64,000 nucleotides of DNA, from contig NZ_AUDE01000011.1 in the NCBI RefSeq assembly GCF_000425305.1, forward strand, positions 1 to 64,000. The letters are read 5' to 3'. This DNA comes from Psychroserpens burtonensis DSM 12212. Its GTDB lineage: Bacteria > Bacteroidota > Bacteroidia > Flavobacteriales > Flavobacteriaceae. Under the pieces are notes generated by a model. The model had not been told where the DNA came from, made no database searches, and saw only the letters and a list, made by a program, of their open reading frames with translations. How positions within the stretch are numbered: position 1 is the first letter of the stretch; each line of letters opens with the position of its first letter. The position numbers were made by a program, and so were the translations under genes. Below, one piece after another: positions 29,205-59,460 of this stretch.

Positions 29205-31508
29205 ATGTTACACTATATTATACAAGTCGTTGCGTTTCAATTACTGTTTTTAATCATCTATGATTTATTCCTTCGGAAGGAAACGTTCTTCAATCTCAAT
29301 CGCTTCTATTTGCTGAGTACAGCAGTCTTATCATTAGTGATTCCTTTTATCAAAATAGACCGCATAAAAGAAGTTATCGCCAAAGATTTTGTGATCAGTT
29401 TGCCAGAGGTTCTCATTGGTGGAAAATCATCACAAGCTTTAAGTACAATTGATCCTTTGATAGCCATGGACGCAGGGATTAATTTGGAACAAGAACCAAT
29501 ACCTATATGGAACATCATCCTCATTTCTGGAATGTGTATCGCCACATTACTCTTAGTTTACAAGATCATTAAACTCTTACTATTAGTCTCTAATAATCCA
29601 AAACGATGGCGCGGTAAGGTGTTAATTGTTTGTCTATTAAATAGTACAAAAGCCTTTTCATTCTTTAATTATATCTTTTTAGGTAACCGACTGACTTCAA
29701 AGGAAAGTACGTCTATTTTAGAGCATGAAATGGTGCACATCAAACAAAAGCACTCCTTAGATTTACTATTTTTTGAGCTCTTGCGTGTCGTGTTTTGGTT
29801 TAATCCATTAGTCTATATTTATCAACATAGAATCGCCACGCTTCATGAATACATCGCAGATGCGAATTCAGTGAAAGGTCAAAATAAAGCAGAGTATTAC
29901 GATAATCTACTAACCCAAGTTTTTGAGACCCAGCAGTTTTCATTTGTCAATCCATTCTTTAAACAATCATTAATCAAAAAACGAATTCTTATGTTAAGCA
30001 AATCAAAATCAAATCAAATCAATTTGATCAAGTACGCCTTGTTAATTCCAATCGTATTTACCATGCTCATGTACACCTCGTCATATGCGCAGGAAAAAGT
30101 AGAAATACTCAAAGAAACCATCAATATATCAGATATTCAAGAGTTGACAGATGAAGAGTTATTTGATAAATATTTTAATGAGATTGTTGAGTTAGTTAAA
30201 AATGATACTGAGCTAGAATATCTTCATGATACTTATATGTCAGATAGTAATAAATACATATTAACAAGAGACAAATATTATAAACAAAAGGCTCTTTTTA
30301 AATTTATATTTAGTCTCGAAAAGGATCAAACTAAACTAGATGAAAAAATATTAAGTGATAATAAAAGCGAAACTTTAAATAAGTTAGGCGAATTCAAGCC
30401 TTACCAGCAATATCTTGATTTTAAAAAAACACAAAAAGCAAAATATGGTTGGGAGAGCACAATTAAAGATGGCATATTAAGATTGGTTGTCGATGATTTA
30501 GGAAACTGGACAGATGAAGAGACTAAAAAATTTAATAATAAGTTTGAGTTTATAGATAAAGATAACTTTTATAATGGTTTATTGGTAGTCTCTGTTGATG
30601 GAAGAACGAAAATGTTGGCTCATGGTACCGATTCTAACGTTGAAGAAAACATATCGAAAGTTGATGAAGTAGAAGTAATCGAGGTTGAGGAAACTATTGA
30701 AGTCCCATTCTCAATAGTAGACGAAACTCCAACATTCACATTTTGTGAAGATTTAAAAACAAATGAAGAACGTAAGAAATGTATGAGTAATCATATTGCT
30801 AAACATGTCAATAGATTTTTCAATACTAATTTAGCAGATAGTTTAGGTTTGGTTGGAAGACAGCGCATTAATGTCATCTTTAAAATTGATACAGAAGGTG
30901 ATGTTATTGATGTTATGGCAAGAGCGCCACATCCTGCTTTAGAGGGAGAAGCTAGAAGAGTTATTAAGACCTTACCTCAGTTTATTCCAGGAAAACAAAA
31001 AGGTATAGCGGTTGTTGTGTCTTATAGCTTACCTATTTTGTTTCAAGTGCAAGGAGATGCAGTAAAACAAGAAACATCAAAAACACTGGAGATTGATCGC
31101 GCAACCGAGCTTAAAGAGGAATTTAAAGATGCAGATAAAGTGCCTTTTTTGGCTTTAGATAAAGCTCCTACTGCAGAGAATTGTGAGAGCCAAACCACAG
31201 AGAAAGAATCAAAGACATGTTTTAGCGACTTCATTTCTCAATATGTAAATAAAAATTTTAATACTAATGTAGCCTCAAAACTTGGTTTAGTAGGTAAGCA
31301 ACGTATAAATGTAATATTCCAAATTGATAAGGATGGCTCAATAAAGAATGTTAAAGCAAGAGCGCCTCATCCTGATTTAGAAGTCGAAGCAAAACGTGTG
31401 ATTAGTAGTTTACCTCAGTTTAAACCCGGAGAAATGAATGGTAAAGCAGTCATTGTTAATTATTCGTTACCTATTCTATTTCAAGTACAAGAAAATAAGA
31501 AAAATTAA
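29205..31508 (+). CDS. BlaR1-like M56 metallopeptidase with two TonB-like C-terminal domains
   Basis: A protein of 767 residues. Four helices in the first 290 residues enclose the zinc protease motif H174-E175-x-x-H178 (LEHEMVHIKQKHS) and the later HEYIADA. The last helix (about 275-293) leads into a long extracytoplasmic part. Residues about 520-625 and 660-765 are two copies of one domain: two Cys about 11 residues apart (CEDLKTNEERKKC, CESQTTEKESKTC), then RINVIF, I-D-x-x-G, APHP, and LPQF-PG before a final SLPILFQVQ, like a TonB C-terminal domain. No penicillin-binding sensor is present. The protease should relieve BlaI repression. What the TonB-like domains sense is unknown. Confidence 0.9.
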   Translation: MLHYIIQVVAFQLLFLIIYDLFLRKETFFNLNRFYLLSTAVLSLVIPFIKIDRIKEVIAKDFVISLPEVLIGGKSSQALSTIDPLIAMDAGINLEQEPIPIWNIILISGMCIATLLLVYKIIKLLLLVSNNPKRWRGKVLIVCLLNSTKAFSFFNYIFLGNRLTSKESTSILEHEMVHIKQKHSLDLLFFELLRVVFWFNPLVYIYQHRIATLHEYIADANSVKGQNKAEYYDNLLTQVFETQQFSFVNPFFKQSLIKKRILMLSKSKSNQINLIKYALLIPIVFTMLMYTSSYAQEKVEILKETINISDIQELTDEELFDKYFNEIVELVKNDTELEYLHDTYMSDSNKYILTRDKYYKQKALFKFIFSLEKDQTKLDEKILSDNKSETLNKLGEFKPYQQYLDFKKTQKAKYGWESTIKDGILRLVVDDLGNWTDEETKKFNNKFEFIDKDNFYNGLLVVSVDGRTKMLAHGTDSNVEENISKVDEVEVIEVEETIEVPFSIVDETPTFTFCEDLKTNEERKKCMSNHIAKHVNRFFNTNLADSLGLVGRQRINVIFKIDTEGDVIDVMARAPHPALEGEARRVIKTLPQFIPGKQKGIAVVVSYSLPILFQVQGDAVKQETSKTLEIDRATELKEEFKDADKVPFLALDKAPTAENCESQTTEKESKTCFSDFISQYVNKNFNTNVASKLGLVGKQRINVIFQIDKDGSIKNVKARAPHPDLEVEAKRVISSLPQFKPGEMNGKAVIVNYSLPILFQVQENKKN

Positions 31509-40081: not shown

Positions 40082-40689
40082 ATGGAAACATTTTTTATAA
40101 TCATTTTGAGCATTTTAGGCACCTTAGGCATGGTGACTATTGTTAAAAAGTTTAATCTTAAAAAACAAACCAATTCTCAATCTGTCATCTTATTAGACAA
40201 AATAAAAAGAGTATGTAAATTCATTACTGTAGAAGGAGACTTTGCAGAAATCTATCATTATGAAGGTGTGAAAGAACGTTTTTTAAAGTTGGTAGTGAGT
40301 AGAAAAAAGCACTTGTAGTCATCAATGCTAAAGCTCATGTAGGGTTTGATTTGTCTAAAATAAAAATGGATTCTAATGTTAAAACTAAAACGGTAACCTT
40401 GTTTCATTTTCCAGAACCAGAAGTGTTGAGTATAGAAACAGATTTAAATTATTACGATAAAACAGATGGTATGTTCAATAAATTTGAAGCCTCAGATCTA
40501 ACAGAGCTACATAATGAAGCCAAGCTTCATATTATGAATAAAGTTCCAGAAAGCGGCCTGTATGACATCGCAAAAAAGGAAGCCTTAGATTCTGTTTTAC
40601 TTATAGAAAGTATTGTACAAACTATTGGTTGGAAGTTGGATTATACCGCTTTAGATATGGAAAATAAGACGCCTAAAAAACTGAAATAA
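40082..40689 (+). pseudogene. DUF4230-like protein with a -1 frameshift
   Basis: Two frames together encode one protein of about 202 residues. The first (40082-40318) gives an N-terminal helix METFFIIILSILGTLGMVTI, then KRVCKFITVEGDFAEIYHYEG and stops at TAG. The second (through 40689) continues as LVVINAKAHVGFDLSKIKMDS and on to the C-terminus, so nothing is missing at the join. The shift falls at A_AAA_AAG (40303-40309), which lies in the correct frame phase for -1 slippage. It is either a one-base homopolymer deletion or a programmed frameshift. DUF4230 proteins are membrane-tethered and of unknown role. Confidence 0.7.
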
Positions 40690-41082: not shown

Positions 41083-41442
41083 TTTCACCACTGGTCTACA
41101 CTTTTGTGTATTCCATCTATATAGGAATCATAGCGGTCGTTTTTTTTGGTTTAGGTTCGTAATTCATCATAGTTTTGTAATTGAATAAACGACTAAAAAT
41201 GTGATGATATCACCCAAGTTAAAAGTGTTATTATTAGATTTTTAGAAGTGGATATTGAAAACAATAATTTAGATCATTTCTTTTTATGTTTCTCACAATA
41301 ATTAGCTCAGTTTTAATATTTAAATCTTCACTCGTCTATACTTAACGGTAATTGGTCGACGTTTAACTTTAATTAAACGAAAAACAATTTAAATCATTTA
41401 CAATTAGAGTATTTTAGAAGTTAATAAACAGTGTAATCGCTT
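41083..41442. other. Upstream region of the H-NOX operon
   Basis: A 360-bp gap without a gene. It holds a dyad CGTTTAA-N6-TTAAACG (41360-41366 and 41373-41379) about 65 bp before the first start codon, possibly an operator. No clear TAnnTTTG/TTTG promoter pair was found. Confidence 0.4.
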
Positions 41443-41856
41443 ATGAGTAAAATACTTAAGGTGCTTTTAATTGAAGACGACACGATAGAAGTCATGAAAT
41501 TAAATAGAGCAATATCATCTTTAAAATTGAAACATCTAATTATTGAGGCTAACAATGGAGAAGAGGCGCTTGAATTTTTAGAGAAAAAAGAAACACTTCC
41601 AGATATTATTTTATTAGATTTAAACATGCCAAAAATAAATGGTTTAGAGTTTTTAGCTATTTTGAAAAAAGACGACACACTTAAATATATTCCAACGATA
41701 ATTTTAACAACATCTAATAATCAAAAAGACTTGTTAGAGTGCTATAAAATTGGAGTTGCTGGTTATGTGCTTAAACCATTAAGGTATGAAGATTATGTTT
41801 TTAAAATTGAAAAACTTTTTATGTATTGGAGCATGAATGAAGTAATAAAATTATAA
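41443..41856 (+). CDS. Single-domain response regulator of the H-NOX phosphorelay
   Basis: A protein of 137 residues with only a receiver domain: EDD at 11-13, phospho-acceptor D59 (IILLDLNMPKINGLEF), LTTS and K in GYVLKPLRYEDY. There is no output domain. Its stop overlaps the H-NOX start (TAATG). With the kinase lacking its own receiver and an Hpt gene in the same operon, this protein is the likely intermediate phosphate carrier between kinase and Hpt (a Spo0F-like role). Confidence 0.93.
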   Translation: MSKILKVLLIEDDTIEVMKLNRAISSLKLKHLIIEANNGEEALEFLEKKETLPDIILLDLNMPKINGLEFLAILKKDDTLKYIPTIILTTSNNQKDLLECYKIGVAGYVLKPLRYEDYVFKIEKLFMYWSMNEVIKL

Positions 41857-42395
41857 TGAAAGGAATCGTTTTTACAGAGTTTTTAGAGCTTGTTGAAGAT
41901 AAGTTTGGTTTAGAAATGGTAGATTATATCATTACAAATTCTGATTTAGAATCAAATGGCATCTATACAGCTGTGGGTATTTATAGTTTTTCTGAAATGT
42001 CACAATTGCTTCAACACCTGAGTGAAAGAACTCAGATATCTATAGATAACTTATTACTGGTTTATGGAGAATATTTTTTTAGAGTTTTAGAAAAAAGTTC
42101 TCCTGAGCTTTTATTAGCATACACAGATCCAATTGAAATGATCTCAGCTATTGAAAGTATTATTCATATAGGAGCAGGAAAGATATATCTTGATTTAGAG
42201 TTACCTGCTTTTAAGGTCATTGAAAAAAACCAAAAGTCATTAATAATAGATTATAAATCGAGCAGAGCAATGCATCATTTTTGTTTAGGTTTAATGAATA
42301 AAACTTTCGAGCATTTTAAGGCTACAGCTGTTATTGAATTAGAGAAAATTAAGGAAGACGGAACAGACGTAAGATTTGTAATACATAAAAATTAA
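41856..42395 (+). CDS. H-NOX heme-nitric oxide sensor protein
   Basis: A protein of 179 residues, a stand-alone H-NOX. The proximal heme ligand is H104 (SIIHIGAGKIY), the proline of the heme-bending position is P117 and the heme-propionate motif Y-x-S-x-R is Y133-K-S135-S-R137. All are offset by +2 from the Thermoanaerobacter protein (H102, P115, Y131/S133/R135). The position of its O2-stabilising distal Tyr140 is F142 here, which predicts binding of NO (and CO) but not O2. Translational coupling on both sides (TAATG and TAATGAG overlaps) ties it to the receiver and the kinase. The ligand is inferred from residues. Confidence 0.9.
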   Translation: MKGIVFTEFLELVEDKFGLEMVDYIITNSDLESNGIYTAVGIYSFSEMSQLLQHLSERTQISIDNLLLVYGEYFFRVLEKSSPELLLAYTDPIEMISAIESIIHIGAGKIYLDLELPAFKVIEKNQKSLIIDYKSSRAMHHFCLGLMNKTFEHFKATAVIELEKIKEDGTDVRFVIHKN

Positions 42396-45235
42396 TGAGC
42401 CAAGAGCAGTTAGATATACTAAAACGTGCTCTTAAAAGAGAAAAGTCAGCTAGAAAAGCAGCTGAAACAATTCTTGAAGAGAAATCTAGAGAACTATATA
42501 AAACCTCCCAAAGACTAGAACATTTATTAGACGAAAAATCGTCTCAACTTCAAGGTATTTTTGAAAATATTGTTGATGCTTATGTCGTTATGGATATTTA
42601 TGGTAATGTGCTTAAGTTTAATGAAGCGGCGACTAAACTTTTTGGTTATGATATCGATAAAGAAGCTGTAAATGTTGTAGATCTTATTTATAAGGAGGAT
42701 TATCAATATGCTATGTTGTCGTACATGGATCTGCAAACTAAAGGTTTTTTTAAAGATTATGAAGCCAGAGTTCATACAAAATTTGGTCAAGTTAGATGGG
42801 TTCATATCAATGCAAGTATTATTTTAGACAAGAATAAGAAACCTATAGCGGCGCAAGGTATTGTGCGGGATATTACAGATCAAAAAGCTTCAGAAGAGAA
42901 GCTTATTAAATCAGAAAGCAGATTGTCTTCTCTAATTCTTAATCTGGATACTGGTGTTTTATTGGAAGACGAAGACCGTAAAATTGTTTTAACTAATAAG
43001 AAGTTTTGTGAGTTACTTCATATTCCTTTAGATCCAGAGTCATTAAAGGGTCAAGATTGCACTAATGCCTCAAATCAAAGTAAAGTACTGTTTGAAAATG
43101 AGGACGGTTTTGTGAGTAGAATTGAGTATGTATTAAAAAACAAGAAAACAGTACTCAGTGATGAATTGGTCATGAAAAATGGAGCAGTTTTAGAACGAGA
43201 TTTTGTGCCTATTATAAAAGATGATATTTATAGAGGTCATTTGTGGGCTTATCGAGATGTAACGTTGAATAGGACTTATAGTAAGCGTCTAGAGGCTCAA
43301 AAGCAAAAGTATAGTAACATTATTGCAAATATGAACCTAGGGATGGTTGAGGTCAATAATGAAGACGAAATCTTAATGATTAATCAAAGTTTTTCTGAAA
43401 TGTCAGGGTATACTGAAACTGAATTATTAGGAAAAAAAGGAGTTGATGTATTTCTAGTTGACAAGTTTAAAGATATAATATATAAGGAAAATAGTAAAGG
43501 TCAAAATGATGAATCTAACTCTTATGAGCTTGAAATAAAAACCAAATCTGGAGAGACTAGACATTGGTTTATTAGTGGAGCACCTAATTATGACGTTAAT
43601 GGTAATGTTACGGGTTCAATTGGGATTCATTTAGATATTACGGATGATAAACGAAATACAGAATTAATTGAAGATCAAAAACGAGAATTAGATGTGATCG
43701 TCAATAGTTCTCCAATAGGCATTGTTTTGACACAATATGGACAAATAATCAAAACGAACTCAACATTTCAAGAGATGTTGGGTTATGCTGAAAATCAGTT
43801 AAATGCATTAACCATAAAAGAGTTATCATTACCAGAAGATTATCCAGATTCCAAAGTTTTTATTGATAAAATAAACACAGGAGAAATTGATAATTTTACA
43901 ATCAATAAACGCTATAAGAAGATAGATGGATCTGTTATTTGGGCTAAAACAAATGTCAATGCTGTAAGAGATATCCACGGAAACATCAAATATCAAGTGG
44001 CTTTAATTGAGGATATTACTTCAGAAAGAGAGAAAACCTTGATTATCGATTTGATTAATAATCTTACGAAATCTATCCTAGGTAAAATTGATATTAATGA
44101 GATTGCAAGGCAAATCGTTAATAATATTGCCCATTATCTTGATTCAGAGGATTGTGTGATTTACTTAATAAATCATGACAATGAAACTTTAGAACAGGTT
44201 GCTGTTTATGGTGAAAAACTAGATGAAGATAATAAAATACGTAAAAGATTAATAGTTCCAATAGGAGAAGGAATTGTTGGAAACGTTGTTAAAACAGCAA
44301 CCTCAAAACTCATTAAAGACACTTCTGAAGAGTATATATACATCGCAGGCGATAAACGACGTTTTTCTCAAATAGCTGTTCCTATAATAAGTAGTGGTCG
44401 CGTCATTGGTGTTATAGACTCTAAGCATAAAGATGAAAATTACTACACCCAAGAACATGTAAAAGCTCTGGAAAGTATTGCGAGTTTAGTCGCTATAAAA
44501 TTACGAACAGCTTTAAATATTAGAGAACGTAAAAAAGCAGAAGCTAAAAATGAAGATCTACGTATTGAATTAGAAAAGAGTAATGATGAGCTTCAAGAAT
44601 ATGCGCATATCGTATCACACGATTTAAAGTCGCCATTAAGGAGTATTAGTGCTCTAGTTAGCTGGATTAAAGAAGATAATTCTGGGAAATTTGATAAAAC
44701 GAGCTTGCTAAACTTTGATTTGATTGGAACGACATTGGATAGGATGGAGCTTCTTATTTCTGATATTTTGACGTATTCAAGTATAGGATCAGAAACTTTA
44801 ATCGATCAAGAAGTTGATTTAAATCTTTTAGTTGATGATTTAAAGCAAATTTTATATGTTCCAGAACACATAACAATTACGATATTAAATACGCTTCCAA
44901 CGATAAAAGGTGATAAAACAAAATTACAGCAGTTGTATCAAAACCTTTTAAGTAATGCTATTAAATTCAATGATAAAGAACAAGGACTTATTGAAATTAA
45001 TGTGGAAGAGAAGAGGTCATTTTATTTGTTTTCAATAAAAGATAATGGTGTTGGTATTGATAAAAAATATCATGATAAAATTTTCAAAATATTCCATTCA
45101 CTTAATAAAAGTAAAGAGTCTACAGGTATTGGCTTGTCTATAGTAAAAAAGATTGTCAATTTACATGATGGCGAAATTTGGTTGACATCCAAGGTAAATG
45201 AGGGCACGACGTTTTATTTTACCTTAAAAAAATAG
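42395..45235 (+). CDS. Cytoplasmic multi-PAS/GAF histidine kinase, probable H-NOX partner
   Basis: A protein of 946 residues without signal peptide or membrane helix. A short coiled coil (1-50) precedes four PAS domains (about 50-165, 170-295, 305-430, 435-555; see GIVRDITDQK and similar C-terminal segments), a GAF domain (about 565-720, VPIGEGIVGNVVKTA, AVPIISSGRVIGVID), HisKA with the phospho-acceptor H in YAHIVSHDLKSPLRS and HATPase (NAIKFND, DNGVGID, TGIGLSIVKKI). There is no receiver domain. Location and overlap with the H-NOX gene suggest H-NOX controls its activity. Confidence 0.92.
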   Translation: MSQEQLDILKRALKREKSARKAAETILEEKSRELYKTSQRLEHLLDEKSSQLQGIFENIVDAYVVMDIYGNVLKFNEAATKLFGYDIDKEAVNVVDLIYKEDYQYAMLSYMDLQTKGFFKDYEARVHTKFGQVRWVHINASIILDKNKKPIAAQGIVRDITDQKASEEKLIKSESRLSSLILNLDTGVLLEDEDRKIVLTNKKFCELLHIPLDPESLKGQDCTNASNQSKVLFENEDGFVSRIEYVLKNKKTVLSDELVMKNGAVLERDFVPIIKDDIYRGHLWAYRDVTLNRTYSKRLEAQKQKYSNIIANMNLGMVEVNNEDEILMINQSFSEMSGYTETELLGKKGVDVFLVDKFKDIIYKENSKGQNDESNSYELEIKTKSGETRHWFISGAPNYDVNGNVTGSIGIHLDITDDKRNTELIEDQKRELDVIVNSSPIGIVLTQYGQIIKTNSTFQEMLGYAENQLNALTIKELSLPEDYPDSKVFIDKINTGEIDNFTINKRYKKIDGSVIWAKTNVNAVRDIHGNIKYQVALIEDITSEREKTLIIDLINNLTKSILGKIDINEIARQIVNNIAHYLDSEDCVIYLINHDNETLEQVAVYGEKLDEDNKIRKRLIVPIGEGIVGNVVKTATSKLIKDTSEEYIYIAGDKRRFSQIAVPIISSGRVIGVIDSKHKDENYYTQEHVKALESIASLVAIKLRTALNIRERKKAEAKNEDLRIELEKSNDELQEYAHIVSHDLKSPLRSISALVSWIKEDNSGKFDKTSLLNFDLIGTTLDRMELLISDILTYSSIGSETLIDQEVDLNLLVDDLKQILYVPEHITITILNTLPTIKGDKTKLQQLYQNLLSNAIKFNDKEQGLIEINVEEKRSFYLFSIKDNGVGIDKKYHDKIFKIFHSLNKSKESTGIGLSIVKKIVNLHDGEIWLTSKVNEGTTFYFTLKK

Positions 45236-45239
45236 TATC

Positions 45240-45557
45240 ATGGAGAAGCCTAATTTATCCTATATTCAGAGCATGTCTGGTGGAGACAAAGCTTTTGAAC
45301 AAAAGTTAATTACTATCATTAAAGGTGAGTTTCCGGAGGAGAAAAAAGTCTACTTTGAAAATAGCGCTGCTAAGAACTATAAACTTACAGCAGAGAATGT
45401 TCATAAACTTAAACATAAAATTAGTATTTTAGGGCTTGAGAAGAGTTATGAGATTGCGGTAGCATTCGAAAATAATTTATTAGAAGGCAGAACTACACGT
45501 CAAGATGAATTCGAAGCTATTCTAAAAGTCATAACTAATTATTTAGAACAGTTATAA
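45240..45557 (+). CDS. Hpt-domain phosphotransfer protein
   Basis: A protein of 105 residues forming one helical bundle. The phospho-acceptor is H55 in AENVHKLKHKISILGL, which matches the Hpt pattern AHxLKGxSxxLG. It starts 4 bp after the kinase stop and ends 10 bp before the LytTR regulator, so it is the last shuttle in the relay, passing phosphate from the single receiver to the DNA-binding regulator. Confidence 0.88.
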   Translation: MEKPNLSYIQSMSGGDKAFEQKLITIIKGEFPEEKKVYFENSAAKNYKLTAENVHKLKHKISILGLEKSYEIAVAFENNLLEGRTTRQDEFEAILKVITNYLEQL

Positions 45558-45567
45558 TTAGGGTCGC

Positions 45568-46278
45568 ATGAAATGTATTATTATTGATGATGAGGCAACT
45601 GCACGAGCAATTATTGAACAGTTGTGCTCTAATATGCCAAGCCTAACTATTTTAGAGCAATTTCCTAATGCAATGCAAGCTATAAAATATCTTAATCAAA
45701 ATGAGATTGATCTTATCTTTTTGGATATTCATATGCCAGATTTTACAGGTTTTGATTTTATTGAAACGCTTAAAAACCCTCCAAAAATTATCTTAACAAC
45801 ATCAGATTCGAATTTTGCAATTCAAGCATTTGAATATGATTGTATCGTAGACTATCTTGTAAAACCTATGTTGCCAGAACGCTTTCAAAAAGCAATTCAA
45901 AAGGCAGAAGCAACAGTAACTATAGCGACATCACTATCATCATCAGAAAACGTAGAATCTACCTCTGGTAATGATTTATATGTCAATATTGATAGACGAC
46001 TTATCAAAATTGATATTCTTAGTATTTATTTGGTAGAAGCAAAAGGTGACTATATTCAAGTAAAAACCGAAAATCAAAATTATACAGTGCATTCTACATT
46101 AAAGAAAATTGAAGAGAAACTGCCAAATGATTTATTTTTAAAAGTACACCGTTCATTTATCATCAATATTGATAAAATAATTGATATTGAGGATAATAGT
46201 GTGCTTATCAAAAAAGAAATTATTCCTGTAAGTCGCTCAAATAGATCAGAATTAATGAAGCGTCTTAATCTTCTTTAA
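45568..46278 (+). CDS. LytTR-family response regulator, output of the H-NOX relay
   Basis: A protein of 236 residues. The receiver domain has DDE at 7-9, D53 (LIFLDIHMPDFTGFDF), TTSD and K in VDYLVKPM. A Ser-rich linker leads to a LytTR domain at about 140-236 (VNIDRRLIKIDILSIYLVEAKGDYIQVKT, LPNDLFLKVHRSFIINIDKI). It binds DNA as the transcriptional output. Targets are unknown. Operator candidates near the operon start suggest self-regulation. Confidence 0.93.
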   Translation: MKCIIIDDEATARAIIEQLCSNMPSLTILEQFPNAMQAIKYLNQNEIDLIFLDIHMPDFTGFDFIETLKNPPKIILTTSDSNFAIQAFEYDCIVDYLVKPMLPERFQKAIQKAEATVTIATSLSSSENVESTSGNDLYVNIDRRLIKIDILSIYLVEAKGDYIQVKTENQNYTVHSTLKKIEEKLPNDLFLKVHRSFIINIDKIIDIEDNSVLIKKEIIPVSRSNRSELMKRLNLL

Positions 46279-46547
46279 AACCATTTGTCGAAACTAAAGC
46301 GACATTCAGCTAACCTATAGGTGCGTCTAGCTAAAATCTATATGGAGCACCATTATTGATAGTACATTTATATCAAACGCTATAACATAACAGTTTTCGA
46401 TTACTAGCAAAAGTCAGGGTAAAGGAGCAATCTTTTACCTTGACTTACTTATAAAAGGCTTGTATTCAGGATGAAAACTATTCGTCGCCATTAAAGCGCA
46501 ACCTAACGTTGTTGCTTTTTGATCCATCGAAAATTCAAAAACAACCT

Positions 46548-46901: not shown

Positions 46902-47396
46902 ATGAAAACAGGAATTATAATCATATTTCATAACTACGAAAAAGAGATCAACATTAATTTTTTTATCAATTATTGTAATAAGGCAAAAAACATTGAGTTC
47001 TGTTTAGTAAATAATGATAGTAAGGATGATACATACTCACTTTTAAAGGAGGTAAAAGAACAATGTGATAATGTGTCAATTGTGAATATCAGAAAATTCA
47101 AGTCAGATATGTCAGCAGTAAGATCAGGAGCACGATATATGTTTAATCAATTTAAATTAAATCATTTAGGGTATGTAAATGCAAATTTATTAAACAAACA
47201 AAATCAAGGCTTAAATTTTGTAATTCAAACAATTAGCGAGCATCAAGAGGCTATTGCCAGATATGATAAGGAAATCTTAGAAAAACATAGTAGAAAGAAA
47301 ACACTGTTTCAAAAGTTGTTTTCAGTTGTAGAGTATTTAACAAAAATAGAATTGGAAAAACAAGTTGATAATCTCCACTATCAAAGTAAGTTTTAA
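46902..47396 (+). CDS. Small GT2-like glycosyltransferase-type protein
   Basis: A protein of 164 residues. It starts like a family 2 glycosyltransferase (KTGIIIIFHNYEKEININFF, CLVNNDSKDDTYSLLKEV), but the domain ends early: the DxD metal site and the second half are missing, replaced by SAVRSGARYMFNQFKLNHLGYVNANL. It could be a truncated or specialised protein. Such short proteins exist in flavobacteria, with unproven activity. Confidence 0.6.
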   Translation: MKTGIIIIFHNYEKEININFFINYCNKAKNIEFCLVNNDSKDDTYSLLKEVKEQCDNVSIVNIRKFKSDMSAVRSGARYMFNQFKLNHLGYVNANLLNKQNQGLNFVIQTISEHQEAIARYDKEILEKHSRKKTLFQKLFSVVEYLTKIELEKQVDNLHYQSKF

Positions 47397-47748
47397 ATAA
47401 AAATAAAAAATGAAAGTATATCCGGCAAAATTTATGACTACACTCATAGAAAGAATTTGATGCTGATATAATTTGATGCAGTCTTATCAAAAGAAACGGA
47501 TAACGATAACACAGATGAAAACTAGCAAATTTCTGATGTCAACGTAAATTTTATGAAGTAAGTAATGTTGTTTATAAAGGCATAAGCCTTTAAAATAGTT
47601 GAAACCGTATTACTTCCAGCACTAACAAATGAGATTACTCTTAATTCTAAATCGGCTAAGCTATTAGAAGTTTGTGTTACAGGAATGGCCAAGGAAATGC
47701 GAGAAAGCTTAAAATAATAAGTGTATTTTTGAATCATAAAAGATAATA
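47397..47748 (+). other. Intergenic stretch with degenerate coding sequence
   Basis: The plus strand around 47598-47717 reads VETVLLPALTNEITLNSKSA, then KLLEVCVTGMAKEMRESLK before TAA, preceded by a stop in the same frame. It looks like the tail of a dead gene whose family I cannot name. The minus-strand frame over it is judged spurious. A possible -7 box TATTTTTG (47724-47731) lies just before the PhnA gene. Confidence 0.35.
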
Positions 47749-48327
47749 ATGAGTTTAGAAAGAGAATTAGGTAAGAGAGCAGATAGTAAATGTGAATTAT
47801 GTGGTAGCGTAGAACATTTACAAGTACATACACTAGCTCCTATAAAAGATGAGAGTTTAGAAAAATCGTTATTAGCATGTAAAGTCTGCGTGAGTCAAAT
47901 TGAAGATCCAGAAATTACTGATGCTAACCATTGGAGGTGTTTAAATGATAGTATGTGGAGCGAACATCAGGCAGTTCAAGTTGCAGCCTGGAGACAATTA
48001 TCTAGATTACGAAAAGAAGGTTGGCCTAAAGATTTGTTAGACATGATGTATATGGAAGATGATGTCTTAGAGTTTGCTAAATCTACAGGAGAAGGTGAGG
48101 CAGATCCAGATCAATTAATTCATAGAGATGTAAATGGCGTGATTTTGCAAGTAGGAGATTCTGTAGTATTGATTAAAGATCTTAAGATTAAAGGGTCTAG
48201 TCAAGTAGCAAAACAAGGAACTGCTGTTAGAAACATTCGTTTAGATCATGAAAACGAAACCTTTATTGAAGGCAAAGTAGGGCCAACGTTAACTGTCATT
48301 ATAACAGAATACGTTAAAAAACTATAA
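47749..48327 (+). CDS. PhnA/YjdM-family zinc-ribbon protein
   Basis: A protein of 192 residues. The N-terminal zinc ribbon has two CxxC-type pairs (SKCELCGS and LLACKVCVSQI), the middle has HWRCLNDSMWSEHQAVQVAAW, and the C-terminal PhnA domain is DVNGVILQVGDSVVLIKDLKIKGSS, IRLDHENETFIEGK. Despite the name, homologues have not been shown to act on phosphonates. The role is unknown. It lies in a stretch of decayed genes. Confidence 0.92.
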   Translation: MSLERELGKRADSKCELCGSVEHLQVHTLAPIKDESLEKSLLACKVCVSQIEDPEITDANHWRCLNDSMWSEHQAVQVAAWRQLSRLRKEGWPKDLLDMMYMEDDVLEFAKSTGEGEADPDQLIHRDVNGVILQVGDSVVLIKDLKIKGSSQVAKQGTAVRNIRLDHENETFIEGKVGPTLTVIITEYVKKL

Positions 48328-57009: not shown

Positions 57010-59460
57010 CTATTTGTTACTCTTTGGCAATATTTCAGTGTCCGCTGGTATTGTTGTGTCCTTCGTTAAAAATACTCTAGGTTTATTAGTTGCAAGATCT
57101 TTTGTGAATAGGTTGAGTTCATCGTGCTTTTTAACGAGTTGAATAGCGCTGTCTGATGAGACTTTTTGTCCTTCATAGAAAAAGGTAGCGTCCTTTTTTG
57201 CCATAGCGATAATATGGTCTAAACGTGATATTGGTCGGGGAGGTGACGGAATATCAATTTTGTCTTTATACGTATTTGGCTCATTGTCCTTAAACTCTGA
57301 GACAACCTTACTATCACTATATACTTTTGTGATGTATTGCCCAGGAAGCACGTCAGAAGCATTTACCTGCCTTTTACTAATTTTAACGCCGGTTTTGTTG
57401 ACTTCAAAACCCTGTCTGTTATAGTATTTTATTGCAGCATTAATGCTAACATAATAGTGAAGAGTTCCATTAATTTTCTGAAAACCGGTTTTCACTTTGT
57501 TCTTGTCCTGAGTTTGTTCGTAAACATCATCATTGACGATTACACTAATCATTTCGTCATTGTCAGTTTTTGCTTGGTGAACTTTACGCTTATAGGTTTT
57601 TTCAAAGTCATTAATTGCAGACTTCATTTTTGCGCGCTGCTCTTGTGTTGCATCTTCTGGAATTGGTGGCGGTAATGCATCTGGGAATGATTCAGCGTTG
57701 TTACGTTGCTTGTCGGTCATTCTTTTATAAATGTTTGTAAAGTTTACTAAATCCTTTTCACTTACAGGAGGAATCAATTTGCCTTGTCCTATATCAATAG
57801 TTTGTTGTTTTATTGCTTTGGCATAGGCATTGTAGGCAGTCACTTCTTTTCCGGTTGGCTGGTTTTGCTGTGTTTGATTTCCCGGCGGCGGCGGCGGAAG
57901 TGTATCAGAAATGTTATCTAAATTATATAGGTCGATTAGTGTGTTGACTTTATTAACCATATCGCTTGGGGAGTTATTTTCGTGCCTAAACACAATATTT
58001 TTTGATTTGTTTTTATCATTCCATACGCTTTTAAATTTAGCTTCAACAGACTTCAACGAGCCTGATTTATCATTAACTGAAAACTGCCCTTTGCTGTTTA
58101 ATAAGATCCAAGTTATTTCGTTTTTTATAACTTTTACTGGAGGCGTTGGAGCTGGAGGTTGAGGCGGGAAATTCGGGAAGGGTTGTGCGCTTTCCTTTTG
58201 AGTAGTACTCATGAGTTTGTATAAATAGTTTATGCGTTCAATATCTTTGAGTTTAATGATTGGATTATTTTTGGATTGCGCGTTAATTTTTTTTGCAAGT
58301 ATATTGTATTCTGCAACTTGCTTTGGCGTAGCCTCCTCTTGTGAATCATTTTGAAATTCTGAGATTCTACTGGTACACACTGTCATTTTTTTTATACCGA
58401 TCTCCTTCAATTTCTTGGAGACATCTTTTGCGATTTTCACATCGGCATCTTGGAAAACTTTTATGGTCACCTGTAGTTTTAAATCTCGACGATACAGCTC
58501 CTCAATATCTTCATAAGTTATTATTTTATTTTCAAGTAAAAGCTCTCCATCTTCATTAAGATATAATTCGATAATTTCTGGTGGAATAATTTCTATTTCA
58601 AGCTGTTCACTTTCAGTAAACCCATAAAATAATAATGCTAATACTGGTAAAATTAATAGGCTTCTTAGCCAAATGGATCGTTTTGATGTGTGTGTGTTCA
58701 TGACTGTAAATCGTTTTTTGATTGATGAATAATTAATGGCATTTGCTAATTCTTGGTGTTCGGCTTTTGATGAGAAAGCCAATAAAATGGTTTGGTATGT
58801 TGATGGTTCAATTCCGTTTTGCAAAACAGCGCGATCTGCTAGAAACTCGTGGTTGAGTTTTACGTCGCGTTTTAGTAGATAGATTAAAGGATTAAACCAG
58901 AATATGATTTGTAACAGTTCTAAAAGAAGCACATCAATACTGTGTTTTTGTTTTGCATGTGTTTGTTCATGTATAAGCACTTCTTTTGGGATGTCATTCT
59001 GCTCAAACTTGTGTTTATTGAAGAATATATAATTAAAGAAGGTATGTGGGGTTTTTAAATTAGAAACCAATACGTGTATAAAACTTCCCGTTTTTAGTTT
59101 AGGATTATTCTTAATTCTAGAAATTATAGTATTGAGGTTGATGCAAAATTTCAATAGAAAAACGAAAATACCCAAACCGTAAAGTGACCACAAAATGATT
59201 GGTGTATAATTTACTTCAATAACTTCTGGAATGGTTTCAACCATATCAGAATCGGAGACTACAAAAGAGTTGTGTTCTTTATCGATGACAGGCTCTATGT
59301 ACTCAATAAAAGTTAATGATGGGATCACAAGTGCCAAAACCAATGTGGCTAGCAAATAAAAGCGCTTAAACTTATGGACACTAGATTTTTCGAATAACAG
59401 CTTATAGAATACCATAAAAATAGCAAGGCAAGCACTAAATTTTAAAAGGTAGATGAGCAT
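57010..59460 (-). CDS. BlaR1-like M56 metallopeptidase with long periplasmic region
   Basis: A protein of 816 residues. Four helices in the first 290 residues enclose the protease site H164-E165-x-x-H168 (LIHEQTHAKQKHS) and NHEFLADRAVL. A last helix (about 268-285) is followed by 530 periplasmic residues with proline-rich tracts (PPQPPAPTPP, PPPPPGNQTQ), an internal duplicated segment (VAEYNILAKKINAQ, VTAYNAYAKAIKQQ) and no penicillin-binding domain. It belongs to the same class as the M56 gene at 29205 but lacks the Cys-paired TonB-like repeats. Its BlaI partner gene is 83 bp upstream. Confidence 0.9.
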   Translation of the reverse strand: MLIYLLKFSACLAIFMVFYKLLFEKSSVHKFKRFYLLATLVLALVIPSLTFIEYIEPVIDKEHNSFVVSDSDMVETIPEVIEVNYTPIILWSLYGLGIFVFLLKFCINLNTIISRIKNNPKLKTGSFIHVLVSNLKTPHTFFNYIFFNKHKFEQNDIPKEVLIHEQTHAKQKHSIDVLLLELLQIIFWFNPLIYLLKRDVKLNHEFLADRAVLQNGIEPSTYQTILLAFSSKAEHQELANAINYSSIKKRFTVMNTHTSKRSIWLRSLLILPVLALLFYGFTESEQLEIEIIPPEIIELYLNEDGELLLENKIITYEDIEELYRRDLKLQVTIKVFQDADVKIAKDVSKKLKEIGIKKMTVCTSRISEFQNDSQEEATPKQVAEYNILAKKINAQSKNNPIIKLKDIERINYLYKLMSTTQKESAQPFPNFPPQPPAPTPPVKVIKNEITWILLNSKGQFSVNDKSGSLKSVEAKFKSVWNDKNKSKNIVFRHENNSPSDMVNKVNTLIDLYNLDNISDTLPPPPPGNQTQQNQPTGKEVTAYNAYAKAIKQQTIDIGQGKLIPPVSEKDLVNFTNIYKRMTDKQRNNAESFPDALPPPIPEDATQEQRAKMKSAINDFEKTYKRKVHQAKTDNDEMISVIVNDDVYEQTQDKNKVKTGFQKINGTLHYYVSINAAIKYYNRQGFEVNKTGVKISKRQVNASDVLPGQYITKVYSDSKVVSEFKDNEPNTYKDKIDIPSPPRPISRLDHIIAMAKKDATFFYEGQKVSSDSAIQLVKKHDELNLFTKDLATNKPRVFLTKDTTIPADTEILPKSNK

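Follow-up and report, generated by a model that had tools for sequence, protein, structure and literature searches.

Organization of the operon

The stretch of DNA analysed here, referred to as the window, comprises the 64,000 nt at positions 1 to 64,000 of contig NZ_AUDE01000011.1 of Psychroserpens burtonensis DSM 12212. Five consecutive genes on the plus strand encode a lone receiver, an H-NOX protein, a kinase, a free-standing Hpt protein, and a LytTR regulator. Throughout, REC denotes the lone receiver and HK the kinase, and the prefixes L, G, and C denote a locus, a genome, and a contig of the P. burtonensis genome.

41443..41856, +, lone receiver with D59, the proposed first Asp of the relay (137 aa; Pfam Response_reg 77.9 bits)
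41856..42395, +, predicted H-NOX haem NO sensor with H104, P117, Y133, S135, R137, and F142 (179 aa; PF07700 (HNOB) 116.3 bits, cut-off 25.5)
42395..45235, +, soluble PAS4-GAF-HisKA-HATPase kinase with H742 (946 aa; Pfam)
45240..45557, +, free-standing Hpt with H55 (105 aa; Pfam Hpt 19.2 bits, cut-off 24.6; fold model)
45568..46278, +, REC-LytTR transcription regulator with D53, the proposed relay output (236 aa; Response_reg 66.4 bits and LytTR 75.3 bits)

According to the ORF calls, the junctions from the receiver to the LytTR gene are a 1-nt overlap, a 1-nt overlap, a 4-nt gap, and a 10-nt gap. A preliminary description had placed a five-gene operon here, with three junctions overlapping or within 5 bp, and had named residues D59, H104, P117, Y133, S135, R137, F142, H55, and D53; its coordinates and domains match, and every residue is present as named. 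Four PAS stretches, a GAF domain, HisKA, and HATPase_c were identified by Pfam in the kinase, which has no Pfam receiver domain, and Pfam likewise placed no GGDEF or EAL domain in any of the five proteins. All five look soluble, because the maximum 19-residue mean hydropathy across them is just 1.25. The window operon contains no FIST protein. Elsewhere in the window, a DUF4230 match at 40351-40689 covers only positions 50-144 of 148, possibly a truncated gene, and two BlaR1-type M56 peptidase proteins are encoded at 29205-31508 and 57010-59460.

Distribution in the family and class

H-NOX was present in 105 of the 299 genomes of the family sample. Neighbourhoods were taken for 100 of the 108 H-NOX places outside the organism's own genome, those left out being G293, G051, G079, G066, G140:C28, G057, G112, and G076:C2. 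With L109 lacking a called H-NOX gene, the set of 101 H-NOX genes consists of 99 genes, L003, and the window gene. A neighbourhood search for the same gene order, proposed in the preliminary description, returned REC-HNOX-HK-HPT-RecLytTR in 38 of 101 neighbourhoods, the window included, and the same order with two genes inserted, REC-HNOX-HK-FIST-HK-HPT-RecLytTR, in 49 more; the other 14 (L003, L131, L133, L062, L068, L084, L034, L045, L039, L046, L063, L069, L079, and L130) had other settings. Because the order recurs on this scale, with and without the two-gene insert, its recurrence is far above chance and the operon is real; that of the window is the shorter, five-gene form. Junctions of 20 nt or less were found in 95/98 cases between HNOX and HK, 35/39 between HK and HPT, and 85/89 between HPT and LytTR, while the REC-HNOX junction was this tight in 63/97 and loose in a third of loci. 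Among named genomes, the best 80 of 584 loci, from Winogradskyella, Lacinutrix, Psychroserpens, Algibacter, Polaribacter, Tenacibaculum, Kordia, Dokdonia, and other genera, comprised 51 seven-gene, 20 five-gene, and 9 other arrangements (several of the latter on short contigs); in 13 of the 80, the H-NOX sequence is the same as that of a member of the first set. The relay unit is common in Flavobacteriaceae and no local oddity. Among variant loci, L039 has an additional gene ahead of LytTR, L130 an additional REC-kinase pair upstream, and L256 two FIST genes side by side.

The inserted protein of L041 contains FIST_N and FIST_C domains (Pfam), and the other inserts were labelled by phmmer. NosP belongs to the FIST family (PMC8738867). 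Because about half of the operon copies also encode a FIST/NosP-like protein paired with a separate kinase, many of these circuits probably have two inputs. When FIST presence was mapped on a quick FastTree tree of 88 loci with 32 open branches, 19 changes were counted, of which at least 9 are forced by starred branches. Within the genus, G045 and G267 carry the seven-gene operon, and a third Psychroserpens locus (L214, among the best 80 of 584) the five-gene form. The first kinases linked to H-NOX (87 loci) fall into length steps of approximately 125-130 aa, at about 404, 529, 658, and 787 aa, as if entire PAS domains had been gained and lost. The idea that longer kinases substitute for the FIST-kinase pair was rejected, because no difference in first-kinase length was seen between loci of the five-gene and the seven-gene form (Mann-Whitney p 0.34).

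In a class sample of 395 genomes, an HNOB match was found in 72, of which 7 belong to the family; presuming that the HNOB and Hpt scans drew the identical 395 genomes, the operon Hpt scored above 90 bits in 8, namely the 7 family genomes with H-NOX and G615, a member of another family, and the 7 family genomes without H-NOX had no Hpt above 40 bits.

Phosphorelay components

All four acceptors of a multistep phosphorelay (His, Asp, His, Asp) are present and conserved: kinase H742 in 100/100 sequences, receiver D59 in 97/97 (as are T90 and K111), Hpt H55 in 92/92, and D53 and K99 of the LytTR regulator in 90/90. The window Hpt falls under the Pfam Hpt cut-off (19.2 versus 24.6 bits). Its AlphaFold model (pLDDT 94.5, pTM 0.85) has H55 within a helix spanning residues 47-63; a Foldseek search with this model returned no match at E<=0.001, and 13 of rows 1-14 were named Hpt or phosphotransfer proteins, the remaining one having no descriptive name, with a query TM of 0.76 to 3myf and to HptB. 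The model supports reading the 105-aa protein as a helical bundle of the Hpt type that carries a conserved His, despite the weak Pfam score. The operon Hpt profile also matches additional short proteins, as well as segments of frames the size of kinases, at E<=1e-5.

The preliminary description had proposed His-Asp-His-Asp flow with each domain on its own chain, and this is the best reading, because the domains are separate, the phosphosites invariant, and the gene order tight; the role of the lone receiver as relay intermediate rests on co-occurrence. Alternatively, the receiver may be a phosphate sink or a separate output, with LytTR reached by another route. In favour of this, L003, L131, and L133 keep REC-HNOX-HK without adjacent Hpt and LytTR, and no Hpt match at E<=0.01 was found in G167, from which L133 derives. 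However, Hpt and LytTR stand almost always alongside REC and HK, and in G197, the source of L131, a different REC and HK accompany an Hpt and a LytTR away from that locus. This alternative is considered distinctly unlikely.

An N-terminal coiled coil of the kinase was discarded as an H-NOX docking motif: it is found in 98 kinases encoded right after H-NOX, yet also in the L306 kinase, which has no adjacent H-NOX.

Ligand site of the H-NOX

Residues H104, P117, Y133, and S135 were found in 101/101 H-NOX proteins, and R137 in 97/101, with K in the other 4. Position 142, which we take from its spacing to YxSxR to be equivalent to Tyr140 of O2-binding H-NOX, is F in 65, L in 35, and M in 1, with Tyr in 0/101. 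The window protein has Phe at 9, 74, and 142, positions presumed equivalent to the distal residues of O2-binding H-NOX, which suggests that no polar distal donor is present. Its closest solved relatives are 6bde (250 bits) and 6bdd (248 bits), which we take to be the H-NOX of Kordia algicida; the molecule name of the entry is aldolase.

Around the proximal H104, the window protein carries the substitutions S98A, H102I, V105I, V107A, P112L, A114L, and T118A, together with E106G and R108G at columns that are more variable in the wider set. H102, E106, and V107 are present in 80/80 named relatives, and in 97/101, 66/101, and 99/101 H-NOX proteins, respectively, of the wider set. Unique departures from conserved columns numbered 12 in the window H-NOX, 3 in genus mate L096, and 1 in genus mate L088, and 7 of the 12 lie within residues 98-118 (permutation p 0.0066). 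The corresponding counts for window, L096, and L088 were 3, 1, and 0 in the receiver, 7, 6, and 3 in the kinase, 5, 0, and 0 in the LytTR regulator, and 0 in all three for the Hpt. Because several genes show a longer branch for the window, a faster rate of H-NOX change is not claimed, just the clustering of its changes, which is unlikely to have arisen by chance.

Ligand binding by the window H-NOX may have been retuned or may be failing. The earlier expectation that NO or CO is the ligand gains from the absence of Tyr at 142 in all 101 proteins, but selectivity and coupling would not be simply transferable to the window protein, because near-invariant positions near the proximal His are changed. 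These substitutions also leave room for sensing of something other than NO (redox or CO) or for function without haem, and redox sensing by some H-NOX groups is discussed in PMC8738867. We regard this alternative as quite improbable, the proximal His, P117, and the Tyr, Ser, and Arg being retained, Phe occupying 9, 74, and 142, and the closest solved relatives being 6bde and 6bdd. In the simulations presented in PMC7356049, an H-NOX abbreviated Ka preferred NO.

A direct repeat upstream of the operon

A consensus of two direct 17-mers with a 21-bp period, CATTCGTCkACACTTAA-N4-CATTCGTCkACACTTAA, was found upstream of the receiver gene. LytTR regulators bind direct repeats spaced by about two helical turns. 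The weight matrix was trained on the sites of the H-NOX operon itself, and a second model, R1, was built from 49 sites (that of the window and 48 of the 65 scoring >=30). Three candidate sites flank the window operon.

41089..41126, +, weaker LytTR-like repeat (24.4 bits; E 0.0015 in the window, E 0.27 genome-wide)
41329..41366, +, strong LytTR-type direct repeat, 76 nt before the receiver gene (38.4 bits, leave-one-out)
46282..46319, +, candidate LytTR site, possibly decayed, directly following the operon (25.3 bits, weight matrix)

For the 97 loci in which a receiver gene immediately precedes H-NOX, the repeat preceded the operon in 84/88 with LytTR and in 3/9 without (leave-one-out; Fisher p 1.6e-5), and 0/97 shuffled upstream regions reached the threshold (best of 5 shuffles each). 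It was also found in 77/80 named loci scored with the trained matrix. The 3 REC-HNOX-HK loci without LytTR (L003, L131, and L133) have no site, and in G172, G227, and G011 the H-NOX operon stops at Hpt, with neither LytTR nor site, while a REC and REC-LytTR pair away from the H-NOX operon (L177, L178, and L179, respectively) has the site. Downstream of the L177 pair lies a gene homologous to that of the secreted protein described below. No site above threshold was found at 4/88 loci with LytTR; L115, whose LytTR departs at 10/86 conserved columns, has no site, and no score above 15 bits was obtained for the REC-HK-Hpt-LytTR operon of G197 (L306), which has no H-NOX gene. Sites without a nearby LytTR occur at L046, L063 (with a broken FIST gene), and L069 (which ends at the contig end). 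Genome-wide, R1 found sites in 14/15 genomes with the cluster, the exception being G113, and in 11 of the 14 site-bearing genomes at least 2 sites fall within 25 kb of the same contig and strand; marginal matches (E 0.006 and 0.008) were obtained in 2/13 H-NOX-less controls. Tied as it is to the presence of LytTR, the repeat is predicted to be the site of the LytTR regulator.

The region 41083-41442, earlier proposed for LytTR binding, contains two LytTR-like sites, one of them strong. The site at 41329 has an E of 3.3e-7 in the window and is the best match in the genome (E 2.1e-5), and it belongs to the R1 training set. In genus mates, a site at the place of 41089..41126 precedes a gene of 97-99 aa that is missing from the window, where no remnant of the 97-aa gene was found (best E 0.14). 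The site at 46282..46319 was missed by R1 at E<=1; in several relatives the site of the secreted-protein gene lies at this place. A genome-wide regulon in this organism was considered and rejected, as 41329 alone was significant, 41089 having an E of 0.27 and a half-site on C22 an E of 0.13 inside a coding frame; this search scored 150 of 975 first-look candidates, and weak sites could be missed.

The downstream island in relatives and its probable loss

In the fetched loci, 30 matrix matches precede the gene for a T9SS-secreted protein of approximately 860 aa, some with two per locus. Site positions downstream were determined in 7 of 19 fetched regions, and in most of the 7 the repeat precedes STAS-flippase genes, a group 1 glycosyltransferase gene, and a receiver-GT2 fusion with a phosphomannose isomerase nearby. 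Because the repeat also stands before secreted-protein, STAS-flippase, and glycosyltransferase genes, the likely output in relatives is a surface-polysaccharide island together with the secreted protein. In G615 (L304), genes for the secreted protein, a TPR protein, and the flippase come after the whole seven-gene unit, with repeats, and because the unit comes with these downstream target genes and repeats, its acquisition by transfer, with targets and sites as a package, is suggested.

The genus mates G045 and G267 carry a 1029-aa island protein, to which no match was found in the window genome in a search with three positive controls. The island glycosyltransferase had no match there in a search run without a positive control, and the secreted protein had only matches to its sorting tail. 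The operon end is separated by 623 nt from the next gene, beyond which the following lie.

46902..47396, +, GT2-like protein, surviving island edge gene (71% identity over 164 aa to the gene of genus-mate L172)
47365..47678, +, phosphomannose-isomerase remnant in three pieces with most of the middle missing (tblastn with the L172 and L173 genes)
47749..48327, +, PhnA/YjdM-like gene, an island flank in relatives (60-61% identity to the L172 and L173 genes; PF03831)

The GT2 match of 46902..47396 is slightly under its Pfam cut-off, and the L172 counterpart of the remnant is a phosphomannose isomerase. Because the edge gene, the phosphomannose-isomerase pieces, and the PhnA-like flank remain, the island was most likely deleted from the window genome. 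With the island missing and the operon lacking the FIST-kinase pair, autoregulation is the sole target that can be predicted here.

It could be argued that, its target island gone, the whole operon is a relict decaying in P. burtonensis, the H-NOX first. The missing matches to the 1029-aa protein and the glycosyltransferase, the sorting-tail matches alone for the secreted protein, the phosphomannose-isomerase remnant, and the 12 unique H-NOX departures (3 and 1 in genus mates), 7 of them within 98-118 (p 0.0066), are all in keeping with such decay. Yet the five reading frames are all intact, departures are fewer elsewhere (Hpt 0, receiver 3, LytTR 5, and kinase 7), and the phosphosites and one strong site are retained; decay of the operon therefore seems unlikely.

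Two further sets of sensor genes lie elsewhere in the genome. On C5 (L137:8056-10979), away from the H-NOX operon, a FIST protein is followed by a hybrid kinase with a receiver, and on C2 (L003:6941-10448) a second REC-HNOX-HK set has no Hpt, LytTR, or site. The latter adjoins a gene of 732 aa, trehalose synthesis-like by eye, and L131, of another genus, also has a 732-aa neighbour. A second, weak free-standing Hpt is encoded on C22 (L138:7643-7984) between FAH-like and CinA-like genes (by eye). Because one Hpt in the genome reaches 1e-5 with the operon profile and the C22 Hpt is weak, the C5 and C2 inputs could converge on the window Hpt.

Proposed mechanism

The operon is read as a transcriptional NO phosphorelay with each domain on its own chain, a reading to which we assign a probability of roughly 0.7. 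NO (or CO) bound to the H-NOX haem would alter autophosphorylation of the PAS-GAF kinase at H742, and phosphate would pass from H742 to receiver D59, then to Hpt H55, and finally to LytTR D53. The phosphorylated LytTR regulator would bind the 21-bp-period repeats at 41329 and, weakly, at 41089, and regulate the operon that encodes it. In relatives, this regulator would control the downstream island for surface polysaccharide and the T9SS-secreted protein, and in about half of the loci a second kinase with a FIST/NosP-like partner would provide it with an additional input. Gene order, domains, invariant residues, site conservation, and the island and its absence are seen in the sequences; the ligand, the sign of its effect, the direction of phosphate flow, the DNA binding, and the polysaccharide output are inferred.

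A broader proposal envisages a mobile flavobacterial NO regulon in which two unrelated NO sensors, H-NOX and a NosP-like FIST protein, signal via separate kinases to a single Hpt and a single LytTR regulator, which through the 21-bp-period repeat would switch a linked island for surface polysaccharide and a T9SS-secreted protein; it seems to us evenly balanced between right and wrong. If it holds, NO would control matrix production via transcription and not via c-di-GMP, and the window would represent the circuit minus one input and minus its output island.

Comparison with known systems

In the Spo0 relay of Bacillus subtilis, the kinase, lone receiver, phosphotransferase, and regulator also occupy four chains. 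The two systems are alike in this separation, but the phosphotransferase and regulator are of other types, and here the input is a gas sensor and the genes form one operon. BtsR, AgrA, and AlgR share with the window regulator the REC-LytTR architecture and direct repeats about two helical turns apart; to our knowledge, the flavobacterial repeat sequence is not one known from these three.

In Proteobacteria such as Shewanella and Vibrio, the H-NOX gene adjoins a kinase gene, and NO-bound H-NOX alters kinase activity (PMC8738867). The gene pairing is the same here, but those circuits lead mainly to c-di-GMP enzymes or LuxU, whereas here an Hpt and a LytTR regulator follow. In V. harveyi and V. 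parahaemolyticus, the H-NOX-regulated hybrid kinase HqsK feeds LuxU (PMC8738867); kinase control by H-NOX, predicted here, would be common to both, but the flavobacterial receiver is on a separate chain and the LytTR output regulator lies in the same operon. As in NosP circuits, a FIST protein stands beside a kinase in the seven-gene form, but this putative haem protein and its kinase lie inside the H-NOX operon and share its Hpt and LytTR. One H-NOX group has been reported to have FIST genes among its genomic neighbours (PMC8738867).

The H-NOX work reviewed in PMC8738867 centres on Proteobacteria and c-di-GMP; the terms LytTR, Hpt, and Bacteroidetes are absent from its text, and its parts on H-NOX circuits and FIST/NosP do not describe a flavobacterial H-NOX relay. 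No description of the operon was found among the matches listed in a literature search of titles and the starts of abstracts, mostly outside subscription journals. This agrees with the earlier remark that such a relay is not well described, although Spo0 provides a precedent for a fully split relay. The preliminary interpretation was sensible and is partly supported: the split relay and the lack of Tyr at 142 stand, but the unit proves to be common, its likely targets are missing here, and the H-NOX departs near the proximal His, this genome carrying a cut-down version of a conserved flavobacterial NO relay.

In a common marine family, a full phosphorelay thus appears to connect one or two NO sensors to a DNA site and polysaccharide genes. 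NO-dependent surface behaviour in flavobacteria is thereby made directly testable: a predicted binding site and a small number of candidate targets are available, natural variants differ in whether they carry the FIST branch, and one organism lacks the targets.
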